Shown here: piece by piece, positions 42,077-49,090 of the stretch
How positions within the stretch are numbered: position 1 is the stretch's first letter
How the letters are laid out: the number at the start of each line of letters is the position of its first letter
NCBI RefSeq assembly: GCF_027924665.1
Contig: NZ_AP027043.1
Span: 5,208,001 to 5,272,000, forward strand
Direction: 5' to 3'
Length of the DNA: 64,000 bases
DNA from: Flavobacterium sp. GSB-24
Lineage (GTDB): Bacteria; Bacteroidota; Bacteroidia; Flavobacteriales; Flavobacteriaceae
Made by a program: the position numbers and the translations under genes
The notes under the pieces: model-generated
Seen by the model: only the letters and a program-made list of their open reading frames with translations
Told to the model about the DNA's origin: nothing
The model's database searches: none

Positions 42077-43462
42077 TTAATTATTTGAAACTGAATTATT
42101 ATTTAATTTTCTAGTTAAGTAATGAAAGCGAATATACAGAAAAAGCGCTGCGGCTGTCAAACCTGCCAAAAGTCCTATCCAAACTCCCTGAGCTTTTAAT
42201 TCGGTATGCTCTCCTAAATAATAAGAAATTGGAAAACCAATAACCCAATACGCAACAAACGTAATATACATTGGGATTTTTACATCCTGCAATCCGCGTA
42301 AAGCGCCCAAAACCACAACCTGAATTCCGTCAGAAATTTGAAAAACAGCTGCAATTAAAAGCAATTTTGAAGCTATACTGATTACTTCTTCATTGTCCAA
42401 AATCTGTCCTGTGTTTTCCATATTCAAAAAGATATAGGGCAAGTAATTATGAAAAATGATAAAGAATATAGCAAAAACAGTTTCTAAGATAATGGCAAGC
42501 AGGAAAATAGATCTCGCTACAACGATAAGTTTTTTATAATCCATTAAACCTCTTTGGTTGCTCACTCGAATCATCGAAGTAACACTTAATCCCATTGCAA
42601 ACATAAAAGTCATTGATGCAAGACTCAAAGCAATTTGATTGGCCGCCTGACTCGTTTTACCAATATTACCACAAAGCCAGATAGAAGCCGTAAACAAAAC
42701 CACTTCAAAAAGCATCTGCATAGCCGAAGGAAATCCGATACTGATAATCTTTTTAATGGTTGCTTTTTTAATTTCGTCGAAACTAAAGTTTTTGAAAAAT
42801 CGTTTTAAATCATTTCTTCGTGAAAGCATGATATGCATGAACATAACTAGAAAGATTCTCGAAATTACGGTACCAAGCGCCGCTCCGATAATTCCCATTT
42901 TTGGAAAAATCCAAATTCCGTAAATCAAAACATAATTAATTCCCACGTGAAGAACGTTTGCCATTACCATTGCATACATTGAATATTTAGTCATCGACAT
43001 TCCGTCTGCAAACTGTTTATATCCTTGATACATTATTAATGGAATCAACGAAAAAGCAACCCAGCCTAGATATGGTTTTGCTAATACAATTACATCTGCA
43101 GGCTGTTCCAATAATTCCATAATTGGTTTTGCAAACATAATGACACCAAAAAGAACTAATCCTAAAATAGTACAAAGAAATAAACCGTGATGAAATGCAG
43201 AACGAATTTTGTTGTCATTTTTCTCTGCATCTCCTTCAGCAACAATTGGTGTAATTGCTGTCGAAAATCCAATTCCAAGAGACATCGCGATGAAAATCAT
43301 ACTGTTACCTAGAGAAACCGCGGCAAGTTCTGTACTTCCTAATTTACCTACCATAATATTATCTACTATACCAATTAAAGTATGGCCAACCATTCCCAGA
43401 ATAATAGGGTATGCCAGTCTCAAATTATACGAAAACTCTCTGGTGTACTGCTTTAAATTCAC
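42077..43462 (-). CDS. MATE-family efflux transporter
   Basis: The 461-residue protein has twelve membrane segments with the repeated MATE halves: YPIILGMVGHTLIGIVDNIMVGKLG in the first and FPSAMQMLFEVVLFTASIWLCG in the second, each broken here for length by the family's usual G and P positions. It probably expels cationic compounds by Na+ or H+ exchange. Substrate is unknown. It is divergent from the outer-membrane protein gene at 43653. Confidence 0.93.
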   Translation of the reverse strand: MNLKQYTREFSYNLRLAYPIILGMVGHTLIGIVDNIMVGKLGSTELAAVSLGNSMIFIAMSLGIGFSTAITPIVAEGDAEKNDNKIRSAFHHGLFLCTILGLVLFGVIMFAKPIMELLEQPADVIVLAKPYLGWVAFSLIPLIMYQGYKQFADGMSMTKYSMYAMVMANVLHVGINYVLIYGIWIFPKMGIIGAALGTVISRIFLVMFMHIMLSRRNDLKRFFKNFSFDEIKKATIKKIISIGFPSAMQMLFEVVLFTASIWLCGNIGKTSQAANQIALSLASMTFMFAMGLSVTSMIRVSNQRGLMDYKKLIVVARSIFLLAIILETVFAIFFIIFHNYLPYIFLNMENTGQILDNEEVISIASKLLLIAAVFQISDGIQVVVLGALRGLQDVKIPMYITFVAYWVIGFPISYYLGEHTELKAQGVWIGLLAGLTAAALFLYIRFHYLTRKLNNNSVSNN

Positions 43463-43652
43463 TTGTAATCAATTTTAGTCGGCAAAGATAATCAGAAGCT
43501 TCGAATTCTATCCTATTAATAAAAATATAAGCCTTTATTAAGGGTAAAATAAGTATACCATAATATTATATAACGATTTTTAAAAATTATATAACAAGCT
43601 CAAAAGTGCTCTATTTTACTTTTACATCATTAATAATTCAAAATTATAAGCC

Positions 43653-44174
43653 ATGAAAAAATTACAGATTATTTGCCTAGCTGCTTTTGCTTTTTTATTC
43701 TCTAACACAACTTTCGCTCAAGAAACAGAAGCAACAAATTACGATCAAGGATTTAGATTAGGATTTGGAGTAAATGGAGGACTTCCAACAGATAACGATT
43801 ACGACTGGGCTCTTGGTGGAGACGTTCGTTTACAATATGACCTTTCTAAAAAAACATCATTAACCTTAACAACAGGATTTACTAATTTATTTAACGGCAA
43901 AAAAGATGCCGCTGGAAATGACATAAAAGATCTAGGATTTATTCCGGCTAAAGCAGGTTTTAAAGCCTTTGTTTTAAAAGATCAATTTTATGTACTAGGA
44001 GAACTTGGTGCTGGTTTTGCAGTAACAAATGGTTACAACAACACTACTTTTTTATGGTCGCCAGGAATTGGTTACGCTAATAAATATATTGACTTAAGTG
44101 TTCGTTACGAAGATTATCATGATTTTAGAACCAACCAAGTAGCATTACGTGTTGCATACGGTTTTAAACTTTAA
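43653..44174 (+). CDS. Small outer-membrane beta-barrel protein
   Basis: The 173-residue exported protein has a signal peptide ending at about residue 22 (NTTFAQ) and alternating amphipathic strands ending in a C-terminal aromatic pattern (VALRVAYGFKL), the hallmark of small eight-stranded barrels. Function is unknown. It is ended by a strong terminator and stands alone. Confidence 0.8.
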   Translation: MKKLQIICLAAFAFLFSNTTFAQETEATNYDQGFRLGFGVNGGLPTDNDYDWALGGDVRLQYDLSKKTSLTLTTGFTNLFNGKKDAAGNDIKDLGFIPAKAGFKAFVLKDQFYVLGELGAGFAVTNGYNNTTFLWSPGIGYANKYIDLSVRYEDYHDFRTNQVALRVAYGFKL

Positions 44175-44210
44175 GAAATAGGTTTAATTTATTATTTTGT
44201 TTTTGGTAAA

Positions 44211-44247
44211 AACCCGACAGATCGCATAGTCTGTCGGGTTTTTTATT
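44211..44247 (+). terminator. Terminator after the small barrel gene
   Basis: AACCCGACAG (44211-44220) pairs with CTGTCGGGTT (44231-44240) over a 10-nt loop and runs into a T tract. Confidence 0.93.
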
Positions 44248-44252
44248 TTCTA

Positions 44253-44286
44253 CCATTGGTCAAAACAAAAGTGCCATTAGTCAAAT
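44253..44286 (+). promoter_or_regulatory. Candidate LytTR operator, site A
   Basis: CCATTGGTCAAAA (44253-44265) and CCATTAGTCAAAT (44274-44286) form a direct repeat with a 21-bp period, the spacing at which LytTR-domain regulators bind. The gene at 44341 begins 54 nt downstream. A GGTAATTCGCA box lies 27 nt after the second TCAAA. A matching site with the same spacing lies at 47428-47460 on the other strand, beyond the LytTR/LytS pair. Confidence 0.6.
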
Positions 44287-44340
44287 GATTTTTTAAGATT
44301 GATTTAGATCGCGGTAATTCGCAGAAAAATTAATCAAATC

Positions 44341-45276
44341 ATGAACAAAACAGTTTTTTATCTCTCGCAGCTTTTCCTTTTTTTACTAGTTAGTCTTGCT
44401 GCACGATCTCAATCAGGAATTTCAGGTGAATTTAAAGTCGATTACGTTCCTTTTTCTAAATATGTACGGCCAATAGACAGTACAAAAACAAATGCGGAAA
44501 GTAATTTTAAGCGGGCGCAAATTGCCTTTGAAGTACCGCTTTCTTTAAAAATGGACCAATACAATCACCCGAGACTTTGGTCTATTTTTGTAAATGGAAG
44601 TTACGCCAAAATGCAAAACAGAAACTACAACATTCAAGATCTTCCAGTAGAATATCGGGGAGGATTTCCGAATGAATTACTAAACACTCAGCTTGGTATA
44701 AAGCACATACGATCTATATCTCCTTCGTGGTCTTTATTAATCATGGCTTCTGCGGGTATCTATACAGATATGGTCGAAATCACCAAAGATGATGTCCTGA
44801 TACAAGGTGGAGTGCTTTTTATTAAACAATTTAACCCGAATCTGGCTTTGGGTGTTGGACCAGTTTTAACCAATAGTTTTGGTGTGCCAATGGTTCTTCC
44901 TGGAATATATTTTAACTGGGAATCCAGAGGTGCTTTACATTTTAAAATTACCTTTCCAGAGGGTGCAGAAGTAGGTTACAGAATGTCTGATAATTTCGAT
45001 TTAAAAGCTGTTGTAGAATTAAGCGGAATGACAGCAGAAACCAAAATTGGAAATAAATCCTCATTGTTAGGATATCAGCAAATTATAGCAGGTTTACGTC
45101 CACAGCTTACGTTTGGCGAACACTGGACTTTAGAACCTACTGCAGGAACCACGCTTGTCCGTAATTTTTCTACCACTAACCGAAAAATTAAGGATATTTT
45201 TAAAGAGAAAGATATAGCCGATCCAAAATTCACCACTACTTTTTATGGAGCAATAGCTCTAAAATGGAAATTCTAG
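44341..45276 (+). CDS. DUF6268-like outer-membrane protein, probable LytTR target
   Basis: The 311-residue exported protein has a signal peptide ending near residue 23 (LAARSQ) and many amphipathic beta strands finishing in FYGAIALKWKF, as in outer-membrane barrels; the general pattern (GEFKVDYVPFSKY at the start) resembles DUF6268. It ends 2 bp before the convergent LytTR regulator gene. Its promoter carries a direct repeat that is repeated upstream of the kinase side of the same system, so it is likely the regulated output. Molecular role unknown. Confidence 0.78.
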   Translation: MNKTVFYLSQLFLFLLVSLAARSQSGISGEFKVDYVPFSKYVRPIDSTKTNAESNFKRAQIAFEVPLSLKMDQYNHPRLWSIFVNGSYAKMQNRNYNIQDLPVEYRGGFPNELLNTQLGIKHIRSISPSWSLLIMASAGIYTDMVEITKDDVLIQGGVLFIKQFNPNLALGVGPVLTNSFGVPMVLPGIYFNWESRGALHFKITFPEGAEVGYRMSDNFDLKAVVELSGMTAETKIGNKSSLLGYQQIIAGLRPQLTFGEHWTLEPTAGTTLVRNFSTTNRKIKDIFKEKDIADPKFTTTFYGAIALKWKF

Positions 45277-45278
45277 AG

Positions 45279-45992
45279 CTATCTGCTTAATAAATTTTTA
45301 TAGACTACCTCTTTCAATAATGCCTCTCGGCGTGTTCTTGAAATAGGTAGTTCTTGTCCTTTTATAAATAATCGCCCGCCGGAAACAGAATCTATATGGG
45401 TAATATTGACAAGAAAGGATTTATGGATTCTAAAGAAAATTTCTGCTGGAAGTGTTTCTTCCAGTGAAATCATAGTCTGATGAATGACAAGAACCTTATC
45501 TTTAAAATGAAGTTTGGCATAATTTTGCATTCCTTCTATGTATAAAATATCGACCCATGAGATTTTTTGAAAACCTTCTTCTTGGCGCACATATAAAAAC
45601 GGATCCAATTGATTTTGTTTTGGAGAATTAATCATCTGATGCCACTGTCTAGCTTTTAAAGAAGCCTGATAAAAGCGTTGAAAAGTTATAGGTTTTAACA
45701 AATAATCTACAATCTGAAGACGATAACCCTCTAATGCATGTTCTGAATAGGCTGTTGTAAAGATCACTAAAGGTGGTTTTTCTAATGATTCTAAAAATTC
45801 CAATCCAGAAAGATAAGGCATATTGATATCCAGAAACATCAAATCGATTTGCCTTTCCTGAAGATACGAAGTCGCTTCTAATGCCGAAGCACAGGTACCT
45901 GAAATTTCCAGAAAATCAATTTTAGAAATAAAGTCTACAATTCCTTTTCTGGCAATAGGTTCATCGTCTATAACGAGGCATTTCATGTTCAT
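45279..45992 (-). CDS. LytTR-family response regulator
   Basis: The 237-residue regulator has a receiver domain with the acidic pair at 9-10, phospho-acceptor Asp55 in FLDINMP and switch Thr/Lys (FTTAYS, LLKPI). A LytTR DNA-binding domain follows from about residue 135 (DILYIEGMQNYAKLHF and FFRIHKSFLVNITHID). Such proteins bind pairs of short direct repeats about 21 bp apart. The sensor gene lies upstream on the same strand, separated by a 135-bp gap holding a repeat. Two matching candidate operators flank the system. Confidence 0.95.
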   Translation of the reverse strand: MNMKCLVIDDEPIARKGIVDFISKIDFLEISGTCASALEATSYLQERQIDLMFLDINMPYLSGLEFLESLEKPPLVIFTTAYSEHALEGYRLQIVDYLLKPITFQRFYQASLKARQWHQMINSPKQNQLDPFLYVRQEEGFQKISWVDILYIEGMQNYAKLHFKDKVLVIHQTMISLEETLPAEIFFRIHKSFLVNITHIDSVSGGRLFIKGQELPISRTRREALLKEVVYKNLLSR

Positions 45993-46040
45993 AGTTTTTT
46001 GTTTCAGGTTTTCTTTGTTTCAGGTTGTGTTTTTTTAAAG

Positions 46041-46120
46041 TTCACGCAGATTTGGCAGATATAGCAAATTGCCTTGTTTGTTTAATTTAAAAATCCTTTT
46101 AATCTTATAATCTGTGGCAA
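46041..46120. repeat. CGCAGATTTGGCAGAT repeat between regulator and kinase
   Basis: The stretch has CACGCAGATTTGGCAGATAT at left and TAATCTTATAATCTGTGGCA at right, imperfectly complementary. I recall similar text in other Flavobacterium intergenic regions. It sits inside what would be the kinase-regulator operon, which is unusual for these repeats in this window. Confidence 0.5.
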
Positions 46121-46127
46121 GAAAATA

Positions 46128-47177
46128 TCATTTTAAATCTAAAGCTACTGTAACGGTAAAGTCAGAATCTGTTTTATTGATATTAAATTGATGTTTTTCT
46201 GGATATTGAATCGCCAGCCTTTTCTGTACATTTTCAAGTCCCAATCCCTGACTTTTAGAAGGAATTTTATAGTGTTCTGTGTGTGAATTTTCTATTTTAA
46301 AAATTAACTGATGGTTTATCTGTTCGCAAGACAAGTGCACGTATCCTTTTTCATTTGGAAGTCGGGAAACATGTTTAAAAGCATTTTCGATCAACGGAAC
46401 CAAAAGCAGCGGGACAATTTGCAGCTGTCCGTCCTCTATATTCCATTTGCTTTTTACTTCCAATTCATTTCCCCAGCGGGTTTCTTCAACAGCTATTAAA
46501 TCTTTCAAATATTTAATTTCAAGATGCAATGGCACATATTCTTTATTGCATTCATACAATTGATAACGCAAAATATCCGAAAACTGAACCAATAAAACCG
46601 ATGCCAATTGTACATTGCTCTGCATCAGAATATGAATATGATTCAAAACATTGAACATTAAATGCGGATTTATCTGATCTTGTAGAATCTTGATTTGTGC
46701 TTCTAAATGAACTTGCTGTAACTGCGCATGATTTCTTTCGATAACATTATGCTCCTGATAAAACCGAAGCCCGCAAGCAGTACCGTTAATTAAAATAGCT
46801 GCCGGAATGCTGCCACAAAATCTTGCCCACAAAAAATGAAGAAAATCCAAATTTACTTCTTCAGGAAATGCTGTGCTTCTTGAAATCGGATCTGAAAAAA
46901 CAGTATAAATCAAGGCAAGACAAAATGACAAAAGCAGTACAACGACAACGCTTTGTACTGCAAACCAGTTCATTTTATTTTTTTTGAGTGCTTTGGGCAA
47001 TATAACATCACTCAAAATATGAGCTAAAACCGCAGAACAAACCAAAACTAAAACAGCCTGAATAGTCGCAGACAAAAAATCGTAATCTTCGATCATTTGC
47101 GCCCAGATCGTAATTCCTAATAAGCACCAAAAAAAGACTAAAAATATCCAATGCCTATTTTTATAATTTATAATCAT
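46128..47177 (-). CDS. LytS/YehU-type sensor histidine kinase
   Basis: The 349-residue protein has four membrane segments (about residues 10-28, 40-60, 73-94 and 116-135) without a periplasmic sensor domain. The His_kinase motif DQINPHLMFNVLNH follows with the phospho-acceptor His172, then an ATPase part with LLLVPLIENAFKHV and GLGLENVQKRL. It should phosphorylate the LytTR regulator encoded next. The upstream 329 bp contain a 24-codon micro-ORF, a 13-bp hairpin and a candidate operator. Confidence 0.93.
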   Translation of the reverse strand: MIINYKNRHWIFLVFFWCLLGITIWAQMIEDYDFLSATIQAVLVLVCSAVLAHILSDVILPKALKKNKMNWFAVQSVVVVLLLSFCLALIYTVFSDPISRSTAFPEEVNLDFLHFLWARFCGSIPAAILINGTACGLRFYQEHNVIERNHAQLQQVHLEAQIKILQDQINPHLMFNVLNHIHILMQSNVQLASVLLVQFSDILRYQLYECNKEYVPLHLEIKYLKDLIAVEETRWGNELEVKSKWNIEDGQLQIVPLLLVPLIENAFKHVSRLPNEKGYVHLSCEQINHQLIFKIENSHTEHYKIPSKSQGLGLENVQKRLAIQYPEKHQFNINKTDSDFTVTVALDLK

Positions 47178-47213
47178 CTAAATAATTTACAAGAAAATTT
47201 ATATTCAAAATTA

Positions 47214-47273
47214 ACCCTATATTTTGTAAAGGAACAGCAAAGAACCAAAAAGATTCTCTGCTGTATTTAGGGT
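47214..47273 (-). other. Stable hairpin between the micro-ORF and the kinase gene
   Basis: Read on the minus strand, ACAGCAGAGAATC (47264-47252) pairs over all 13 positions, two of them G-U, with GGTTCTTTGCTGT (47246-47234) around a five-T loop. An outer helix AACCCTA/TAGGGTT closes the structure. Only a weak T-rich stretch follows, so it may be an attenuator, a processing site or a partial terminator rather than a full stop. Confidence 0.6.
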
Positions 47274-47292
47274 TCCGTTATAAAATGTGACG

Positions 47293-47367
47293 TTATAAGA
47301 AAAAATGTCCCAGCCCACTACCCAATAAAAAAATAGCGGTCAATAATAACATTTTGTAGATGTTCAT
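47293..47367 (-). CDS. Candidate 24-residue membrane microprotein
   Basis: The ORF starts at ATG 47367 and ends with TAA at 47293. It encodes 24 residues: a short polar start (MNIYK), one hydrophobic helix with a GSGLG packing motif, and HFFL at the end. Evidence for expression is context: the ATG lies 60 nt after the candidate LytTR operator at 47428-47460, in nearly the same geometry as the outer-membrane protein gene at 44341, including a GGTACTTTGCA box and the same ATCATG start context. It would be the first gene ahead of the kinase. No homologue is known to me. Confidence 0.45.
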   Translation of the reverse strand: MNIYKMLLLTAIFLLGSGLGHFFL

Positions 47368-47427
47368 GATAATAGATTTATTAATTTGATGCAAAGTACC
47401 ACAAACCTCAAGCACTATTAAAATTAG

Positions 47428-47460
47428 TTTGATGAACTACATTATTGTTTTGACCAACGG
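47428..47460 (-). promoter_or_regulatory. Candidate LytTR operator, site B
   Basis: On the minus strand CCGTTGGTCAAAACAA is followed at a 21-bp period by GTAGTTCATCAAAC. Compared with site A (44253-44286) the first half-site differs by one base over CCATTGGTCAAAACAA. A GGTACTTTGCA box lies exactly 27 nt after the second TCAAA, as in site A. Confidence 0.6.
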
Positions 47461-47490
47461 ATTTTTAAACAATATCCTAAATCTTAAAAC

Positions 47491-47514
47491 AAAAAAAAGT
47501 CTTGTTTTAAGACT
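47491..47514 (-). terminator. Terminator overlapping the PPK2 stop codon
   Basis: On the minus strand AGTCTT (47514-47509) pairs with AAGACT (47503-47498) over a 5-nt loop and is followed by eight T. The stem includes the TAA stop of the PPK2 gene. Confidence 0.8.
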
Positions 47515-48388
47515 CTTTTTCCAGCTGTTTTTTATAAAGCTCAAAGTTGGCTTTAATTTTTTCATCAAGTTCCGGTTCTTTAATATCGGTATATTGTTTC
47601 ATTTCTTCCCAAATTATTTTAGCTACAATATAACGCGCCATATCTTTATCATCTGCAGGAATTACATACCAAGGCGCATGTCCTTTCGATGTTTGATTAA
47701 TGGCTTCTTCATAATATTGCTGATACTCATCCCAATGTTCGCGTTCTTTAAGGTCGCCTGGCGAAAATTTCCAATTATGCTTTCCTTCTTCCAAACGGCG
47801 CAGTAAACGATTCTTTTGTTCTTCTTTACTCAAGTGCAGAAAGAACTTCATAACGATAGTTCCGTTTTCTGCAATATGTTTTTCGAAATTATTGATTTGT
47901 TCAATTCTGTTTTTCCAAAATTTCGGTTTAATATCATCAACCGAATTAATTCCTGGTAAATTCTCTGCCAAAATAAATTCTGGATGCACTCTCGTTACCA
48001 AAACATTTTCGTAATGCGTTCTGTTAAAAATGGCAAATTTCCCTTTTTCGGGCAAAGCAATGTAATGTCGCCATAAATAATCGTGTTCCAATTCGGTTGA
48101 ATTTGGTGTTTTAAAACTATGCACCACTACCCCGCGCGGATTAAATTCTTTAAAAACTTCCCGAATCAAACTGTCTTTTCCAGAAGTATCCATTCCTTGC
48201 AGACAGATTAAAACCGCGTACTTATTGTGCGCATACATAACATCCTGCAAATCACTTAATTTTGCCTGAACTTTATCTAGTTTCTCTTCTTTTTCGTCAT
48301 CATCCGCATCAACATTTAGTAATGTCGGAAGCTTCTTTAATTTTATTTCATCTGTAACTTTAAAATCTTTTGGGTCTATTGACTTCAT
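47507..48388 (-). CDS. ppk2: Polyphosphate kinase 2 family enzyme
   Basis: The 293-residue P-loop kinase has Walker A GMDTSGKDS at 65-73, the lid-region RTHYENVLVTRVHPE and HLSKEEQKNRLLRR, matching class I-like PPK2 or polyphosphate:nucleotide phosphotransferases. It moves phosphate between polyphosphate and nucleoside phosphates; the preferred direction and nucleotide cannot be read. The gene ends in a terminator that overlaps its stop codon. Confidence 0.92.
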   Translation of the reverse strand: MKSIDPKDFKVTDEIKLKKLPTLLNVDADDDEKEEKLDKVQAKLSDLQDVMYAHNKYAVLICLQGMDTSGKDSLIREVFKEFNPRGVVVHSFKTPNSTELEHDYLWRHYIALPEKGKFAIFNRTHYENVLVTRVHPEFILAENLPGINSVDDIKPKFWKNRIEQINNFEKHIAENGTIVMKFFLHLSKEEQKNRLLRRLEEGKHNWKFSPGDLKEREHWDEYQQYYEEAINQTSKGHAPWYVIPADDKDMARYIVAKIIWEEMKQYTDIKEPELDEKIKANFELYKKQLEKES

Positions 48389-48496
48389 ATTTTTTCCCGT
48401 TTTTATTTATAATAAATATACTACTTTTACGAATTCCGATAACTATCCAATTTGCTATTCATTGGATTATTTTGATTAAAGTTATAAAAATTTAAA

Positions 48497-49090
48497 ATGA
48501 AAAAATTAACACATGAAGATATAGAAAACTTTATTACTACTATTGATAAAATAAATAACCCTTTACTTGTTGCAAATAAAATTTCTTATTTTATTTCTGA
48601 TGCATTGAGAGAAAATACAATAAATCTCTTTGAAGCTTATTTACTTAACTTAGAAGAAATTAAAATTAGGCGTATTGGTTATATTCAATTAAGCTGGAAT
48701 GTGAATATTCAAATACGTACATGTTTGGCTATAATAAATCAGTTAATTTTAGCCTATTATTTCGGAAATATTGAAACAATTGAAATGCTTAAAAGATGGG
48801 GGTTAGAGGCTTTCAATCTAAATAAGGAGAAGAGATCGCATTACATTATGGATGAATACGAACTTTTTTTAAATATTAAGAATTCGGATAACTTACTTAG
48901 AGAATTGTTAAAAGTAAGAAACAACTATAATCATTTAAACGATGACCTCGGTCCATATCATATTGAAGTATTTCCATACCATTTTTATAGTCCTGAAAAA
49001 ATCTTATTAGAAAAAGAAAAATCATATGATTGTAATTTAGGAGAACAGATTGAAAATCTAATTATCTACTTAAATCTTAAAGAGTTTTAG
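48497..49090 (+). CDS. Helical protein of unknown function with an RN-x3-H motif (HEPN-like?)
   Basis: The 197-residue soluble protein is predicted mostly helical and is not one I recognise. Near the end of a helix it has RELLKVRNNYNHLND, where Arg141, Asn142 and His146 match the R-x4-6-H motif with a polar residue after Arg, the active site of HEPN ribonucleases. The fold cannot be confirmed from sequence alone. The gene is single, AT-rich, and has no recognisable partner such as a MNT nucleotidyltransferase beside it, so a toxin role is only a possibility. Confidence 0.6.
   Translation: MKKLTHEDIENFITTIDKINNPLLVANKISYFISDALRENTINLFEAYLLNLEEIKIRRIGYIQLSWNVNIQIRTCLAIINQLILAYYFGNIETIEMLKRWGLEAFNLNKEKRSHYIMDEYELFLNIKNSDNLLRELLKVRNNYNHLNDDLGPYHIEVFPYHFYSPEKILLEKEKSYDCNLGEQIENLIIYLNLKEF

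Follow-up and report, generated by a model that had tools for sequence, protein, structure and literature searches.

A LytTR regulator and histidine kinase locus flanked by two matching direct repeats in Flavobacterium

Organization of the locus

The window analysed here is a stretch of 64,000 nucleotides from Flavobacterium sp. GSB-24 (contig NZ_AP027043.1, positions 5,208,001 to 5,272,000). It contains a gene for a DUF6268 protein that converges with genes encoding a LytTR response regulator and a histidine kinase, the whole set being flanked by two direct repeats (Table 1). At both ends an ATCATG start context leads into the first reading frame, at 44341 (DUF6268) and 47367 (a 24-codon ORF).

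Table 1. Features of the locus, with positions counted from the first nucleotide of the window.
Feature	Position	Strand	Remarks
Direct repeat, two half-sites, period 21; putative LytTR operator	44253..44285	+	ahead of DUF6268 gene
GGTAATTCGCA, probable -7 region	44313..44323	+	DUF6268 promoter
DUF6268 protein (PF19783), 311 aa	44341..45276	+	predicted beta-barrel, low confidence
Response regulator, receiver and LytTR domains, 237 aa	45279..45992	-	Pfam
Histidine kinase (PF06580), 349 aa	46128..47177	-	Pfam
Hairpin	47235..47263	-	between barrel remnant and kinase; conserved in barrel-bearing core loci
24-codon ORF: the two ends (16 codons at the start, 8 at the end) of an outer-membrane barrel gene whose middle is deleted	47293..47367	-	
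GGTACTTTGCA, probable -7 region	47390..47400	-	kinase-side promoter
Direct repeat, two half-sites, period 21; putative LytTR operator	47428..47460	-	ahead of barrel remnant, kinase and regulator

Both domains of the regulator score well above their curated Pfam cut-offs (receiver, 69.9 bits vs. 30.2; LytTR, 66 vs. 22.6). Its best NCBIfam equivalog match is BtsR, an identity that we rejected, as the score of 112.2 bits falls far under the cut-off of 246. In the kinase, a Pfam scan identified PF06580 and a sub-threshold HATPase_c_5 match and nothing else, with no LytS-type 5TM membrane domain beside the His_kinase domain; the ‘LytS’ label of the initial annotation is therefore a loose one. The predicted structure of the DUF6268 protein has a mean pLDDT of 63.5 and its best solved match is OmpG, at a TM-score of 0.38, for which reason we refer to it merely as a predicted beta-barrel. 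In the literature searched, accessible in part, DUF6268 appears in one study, on Akkermansia. A mutated LytTR regulator has been reported in coevolution lines of F. johnsoniae (PMC10197871), and the available text of that report allowed no tie to the regulator of the window.

No Rfam family was found in 43400-48600. Ahead of the DUF6268-side repeat, and after the gene for a small outer-membrane barrel (43653-44174), the plus strand contains a 15-pair stem followed by a T-rich tail (44208-44243), resembling a terminator.

Direct repeats and the promoters they precede

The initial annotation had described two repeats of common sequence and 21-bp period, and both are present where, and on the strands on which, it had placed them. 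The half-sites are CCATTGGTCAAA (44253-44264) and CCATTAGTCAAA (44274-44285) ahead of the DUF6268 gene, and CCGTTGGTCAAA (47460-47449) and TAGTTCATCAAA (47439-47428) on the kinase side. Each repeat can be written as 9 bp-12 bp-9 bp (ACCATTGGT-12-GCCATTAGT and TCCGTTGGT-12-GTAGTTCAT), the geometry expected of LytTR sites. Across the 5.35-Mb genome, CNRTTNRTCAAA-N9-NNRTTNRTCAAA has two exact sites (both at this locus); no site differs at one position and 11 differ at two; with up to three mismatches there are 115 sites vs. 75 in a reversed control, so that only the exact pair stands out and looser matches are background. The 13-mer CCRTTGGTCAAAA has one more copy in the genome (L001), which was rejected as an operator since it lies inside an open reading frame and lacks a second half-site.

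Close relatives of DUF6268 (E < 1e-100) are encoded in 18 of 150 Flavobacterium genomes. A search of all 150 for the exact repeat gave 20 matches, spread over 14 genomes (reversed control, 1). Twelve of the 18 genomes just mentioned account for 18 of these matches, all at the module, and the other two fall in two of the remaining 132. When a related pattern was sought in the 17 module genomes other than that of the window, the 29 sites within one mismatch were without exception at the module; the 23 sites with two mismatches comprised two at the module (G058, G076) and 21 elsewhere, and the reversed control gave nine sites up to two mismatches. Six of the 18 module genomes lack the exact repeat: four (G006, G063, G058, G111) carry sites within one mismatch, and two (G072, G123) have no site within one mismatch of either pattern. 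No third conserved target of the repeat is apparent in the window's genome or the 17 others.

For comparison across loci, 52 (17 plus 35) were selected on the basis of the DUF6268 gene and irrespective of the repeat; six that duplicated others across the 300 bases preceding the kinase were dropped, leaving 46. Every 33-mer of each locus was scored on both strands, with background scores in the same loci (mostly 15-17) as control; scores for core-clade loci are partly circular, because the consensus used was that of the window. The DUF6268 promoter and the kinase side hold the two top scores in 42 of the 46 loci; three of these 42 are from Pedobacter. The remaining four, L089 and three Elizabethkingia loci, have the genes, and their top scores lie elsewhere than at the promoters; in L089 the regulator and kinase are also ~2 kb away, with only a weak repeat left on the kinase side. 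L089 was excluded from the motif and conservation analyses, and motif tallies thus cover the window plus 45 loci and conservation values 36 core-clade rows. The initial annotation had named two outcomes contrary to its reading, a repeat lacking at the same genes in relatives or scattered at random through the genome; both were looked for, and apart from the four exceptions among 46 loci neither was found.

In the core-clade rows, conservation of the half-sites is 0.95 on the DUF6268 side and 0.92 on the kinase side, as against 0.77 for both spacers and 0.79 and 0.60, respectively, for the upstream flanks. It extends beyond the half-sites, since the stretch from repeat to -7 box stands at 0.89 and 0.86. 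Comparison of sequences shows joint conservation of the repeats, of where they lie and of the gene set. This co-occurrence, across the genus and in the Pedobacter loci, bears on whether the repeats are read by the neighbouring regulator or by another, such as one of the 18 other LytTR proteins of the genome. With 19 LytTR domains encoded and binding of the regulator to the repeats putative, a different reader is conceivable; the shared distribution of repeat and gene set and the lack of an apparent third site make it very improbable.

The association of DUF6268 with LytTR regulators is broader than the repeat. A strong DUF6268 match outside the genus was found in two of 296 genomes of the class Bacteroidia. 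In these two distant genomes (L137, L138), DUF6268 is succeeded by two kinase-like genes and then a LytTR regulator, all in the same direction, and a repeat of the window's type is lacking. In L077 an additional score of 19 was obtained on the kinase side, displaced upstream by one period (21 bp), which suggests that three half-sites follow one another there.

Each probable -7 region starts exactly 27 nt past the end of its repeat. The shared GGTAnTTnGCA box of the initial annotation is indeed found in both promoters at this distance, its sequence being partly peculiar to the window strain: in the 36 core-clade rows the box is mostly GGTAATTCGCAG on the DUF6268 side (19/36) and mostly GCTCCTTTGCAT on the kinase side (19/36), and its position is better conserved than its sequence. 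Of the flavobacterial -7 motifs in the accessible text of PMC9723704, TAnnTTGY (SM5) matches exactly in 4/46 kinase-side and 0/46 DUF6268-side regions (window plus 45 loci), and TAnnTTTG occurs exactly in 10/46 and 0/46. An exact match of the boxes to these published motifs is thus not sustained across relatives, and, with both motifs confined to a minority of regions on one side and absent on the other, we have left the sigma factor unassigned. A sigma-70 scan gave 12 sites vs. 13.4 in shuffles, no excess.

A second outer-membrane barrel gene and the hairpin before the kinase

The usual kinase-side order in relatives is repeat, outer-membrane barrel (~190-200 residues), kinase. A full-length barrel gene is found in 33 of the 46 loci (25 core loci, L087, L088, three Elizabethkingia and three Pedobacter), and none lies beside the kinase in 12 (10 core loci, L086 and L089). 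The one barrel protein scanned, from L096, matches OMP_b-brl_2 (PF13568) at 67.6 bits vs. a cut-off of 27. In nucleotide alignments with L096, L077 and L091, the 24-codon ORF corresponds to the first 16 and last 8 codons of this gene, with the middle missing in frame; as both of its ends match the ends of the relatives' gene, the window strain appears, by alignment, to retain only the two ends of a second barrel gene. Barrel relatives elsewhere in its genome amount to six matches, all distant (28-36% identity).

The initial annotation had regarded this ORF as a microprotein output of the circuit, a claim that is not supported, the ORF consisting of the fused ends of a gene that is full-length in most loci. 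Its reading frame is uninterrupted and matches that of the barrel gene, and the ancestral start context is retained, as a functional small membrane or leader peptide would require; nevertheless, no comparable small ORF was seen in the 46 loci (the 89-codon barrel gene of L090 results from a different internal deletion), 10 core loci have no gene at all at that place, and its make-up from two ends of a barrel gene also speaks against a peptide function, which we regard as extremely improbable. Most likely the ORF is a functionless deletion scar, and it illustrates that a plausible ‘microprotein’ can turn out to be one. In L088 and L090 a further direct repeat precedes a separate barrel gene, such that DUF6268, barrel and kinase have one repeat each.

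Ahead of the kinase lies the hairpin CAGCAGAGAATC-loop-GGTTCTTTGCTG, in a stretch that outperformed each of 200 shuffled versions in folding (z -4.08). The hairpin sequence is unique in the window's genome at up to three mismatches. Within the 140 bases before the kinase, the hairpin is present in the window and all 25 barrel-bearing core loci and missing from all 10 core loci that lack the barrel. In L087 and the three Elizabethkingia loci this interval holds hairpins that differ in sequence, and none of note was seen in L086, L088, L089, L090 or the three Pedobacter loci. The hairpin might set the ratio of barrel to kinase.

Barrel gain and loss were read from the core-clade tree only (36 rows; the window and 35 core loci). 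Three changes of the barrel label are needed on this tree, where the starred branches force three; these changes may include gains by exchange. As read from this tree, the barrel output gene appears to have been lost more than once. In the barrel-less core loci that were aligned (L075, L080, L082), the gap spans from a TTTG in the promoter box to a matching TTTG in the far arm of the hairpin, which suggests that recombination between short repeats may have removed the barrel gene in these loci.

A candidate self-controlling circuit

Together, these features are best explained, in our estimation probably correctly, by a two-component system with a closed regulon, in which the LytTR regulator activates the DUF6268 gene and its own operon. 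The kinase would sense a cue and phosphorylate the regulator, which would then bind the 21-bp-period repeats just upstream of the two promoters and activate two targets, namely the gene for the DUF6268 outer-membrane protein and the operon that encodes the regulator itself, which in most relatives consists of barrel, kinase and regulator. Activation of its own operon would amount to positive feedback. Two precedents suggest binding and autoregulation: LytTR operons for which positive autoregulation has been demonstrated have the same 9-12-9 layout immediately before the promoter (PMC6193735), and most LytTR regulators whose sites lie upstream of the -35 box are activators (PMC11347149), as far as the accessible parts of these papers go. 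The initial annotation had likewise placed both ends under the LytTR protein; LytTR-site geometry, conserved at both ends and nearly absent elsewhere, strongly supports such control, the regulator's own operon included, and the microprotein is the part of that proposal that has been dropped.

It is from the position of the sites, and from that only, that we infer activation rather than repression. CoxC is a known LytTR repressor, with repeats overlapping the -35 box (PMC11347149, in part), and a repressor bound at both repeats, with a signal freeing both the barrels and the regulator's operon from repression, would be an analogous arrangement. However, with the last half-site ending 27 nt before the -7 region at both promoters, the regulator would sit just upstream of polymerase, the placement from which LytTR regulators mostly activate, and we consider repression unlikely.

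Among known systems, the window system comes closest to LytTR response regulators with histidine kinases, of the AgrA, AlgR, YpdB and BtsR type (PF04397), which it resembles in its receiver and LytTR domains, its adjoining PF06580-type kinase and its promoter-proximal pair of 9-bp direct repeats with a 12-bp spacer, and from which it differs in its outer-membrane barrel targets and its own half-site, CC(A/G)TTGGTCAAA. It shares operon-proximal direct repeats at 12-bp spacing with LytTR regulatory systems (LRS) of the HdrRM/BrsRM type, for which the available text of PMC6193735 reports the positive autoregulation that we propose here. In contrast to LRS, which couple a LytTR regulator with a membrane inhibitor and work without a phosphorelay, the window system has a receiver domain and a histidine kinase, and we therefore rejected its assignment to this class. 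It is also unlike the LRS-like operons described there from Bacteroides, in which the regulators span the membrane and the repeats are 11 bp long with 11 bp between them.

The module very likely controls itself, and would thus belong to the ordinary class of LytTR autoregulation, set apart by an unusually closed regulon and by the repeated loss of an output gene. A stronger version, which we put forward tentatively and think less likely than not to hold in full, is an envelope circuit that is strictly private, has been retained between Flavobacterium and Pedobacter, and acts on nothing but itself and one or two outer-membrane barrels, the second barrel having been repeatedly deleted, often with the hairpin. 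If this were so, loss of barrel and hairpin would join the controlled promoter directly to the kinase, altering the strength of feedback, and the barrels might be part of sensing instead of mere outputs.

The literature searched, mostly open-access, contains neither an earlier description of this module nor a described binding site or target of a kinase-coupled LytTR regulator in Flavobacterium. As comparison has pinned down a candidate site, both putative targets and a workable relative (F. johnsoniae, of which strain CI04, locus L096, carries the barrel gene at full length), the proposed system is directly testable. Within the operon, the gap between the kinase and regulator genes (45993-46127) varies much in length among relatives; that of the window contains a tandem 16-mer plus AGTTCACGCAGATTTGGCAGAT, the latter unique in the window.
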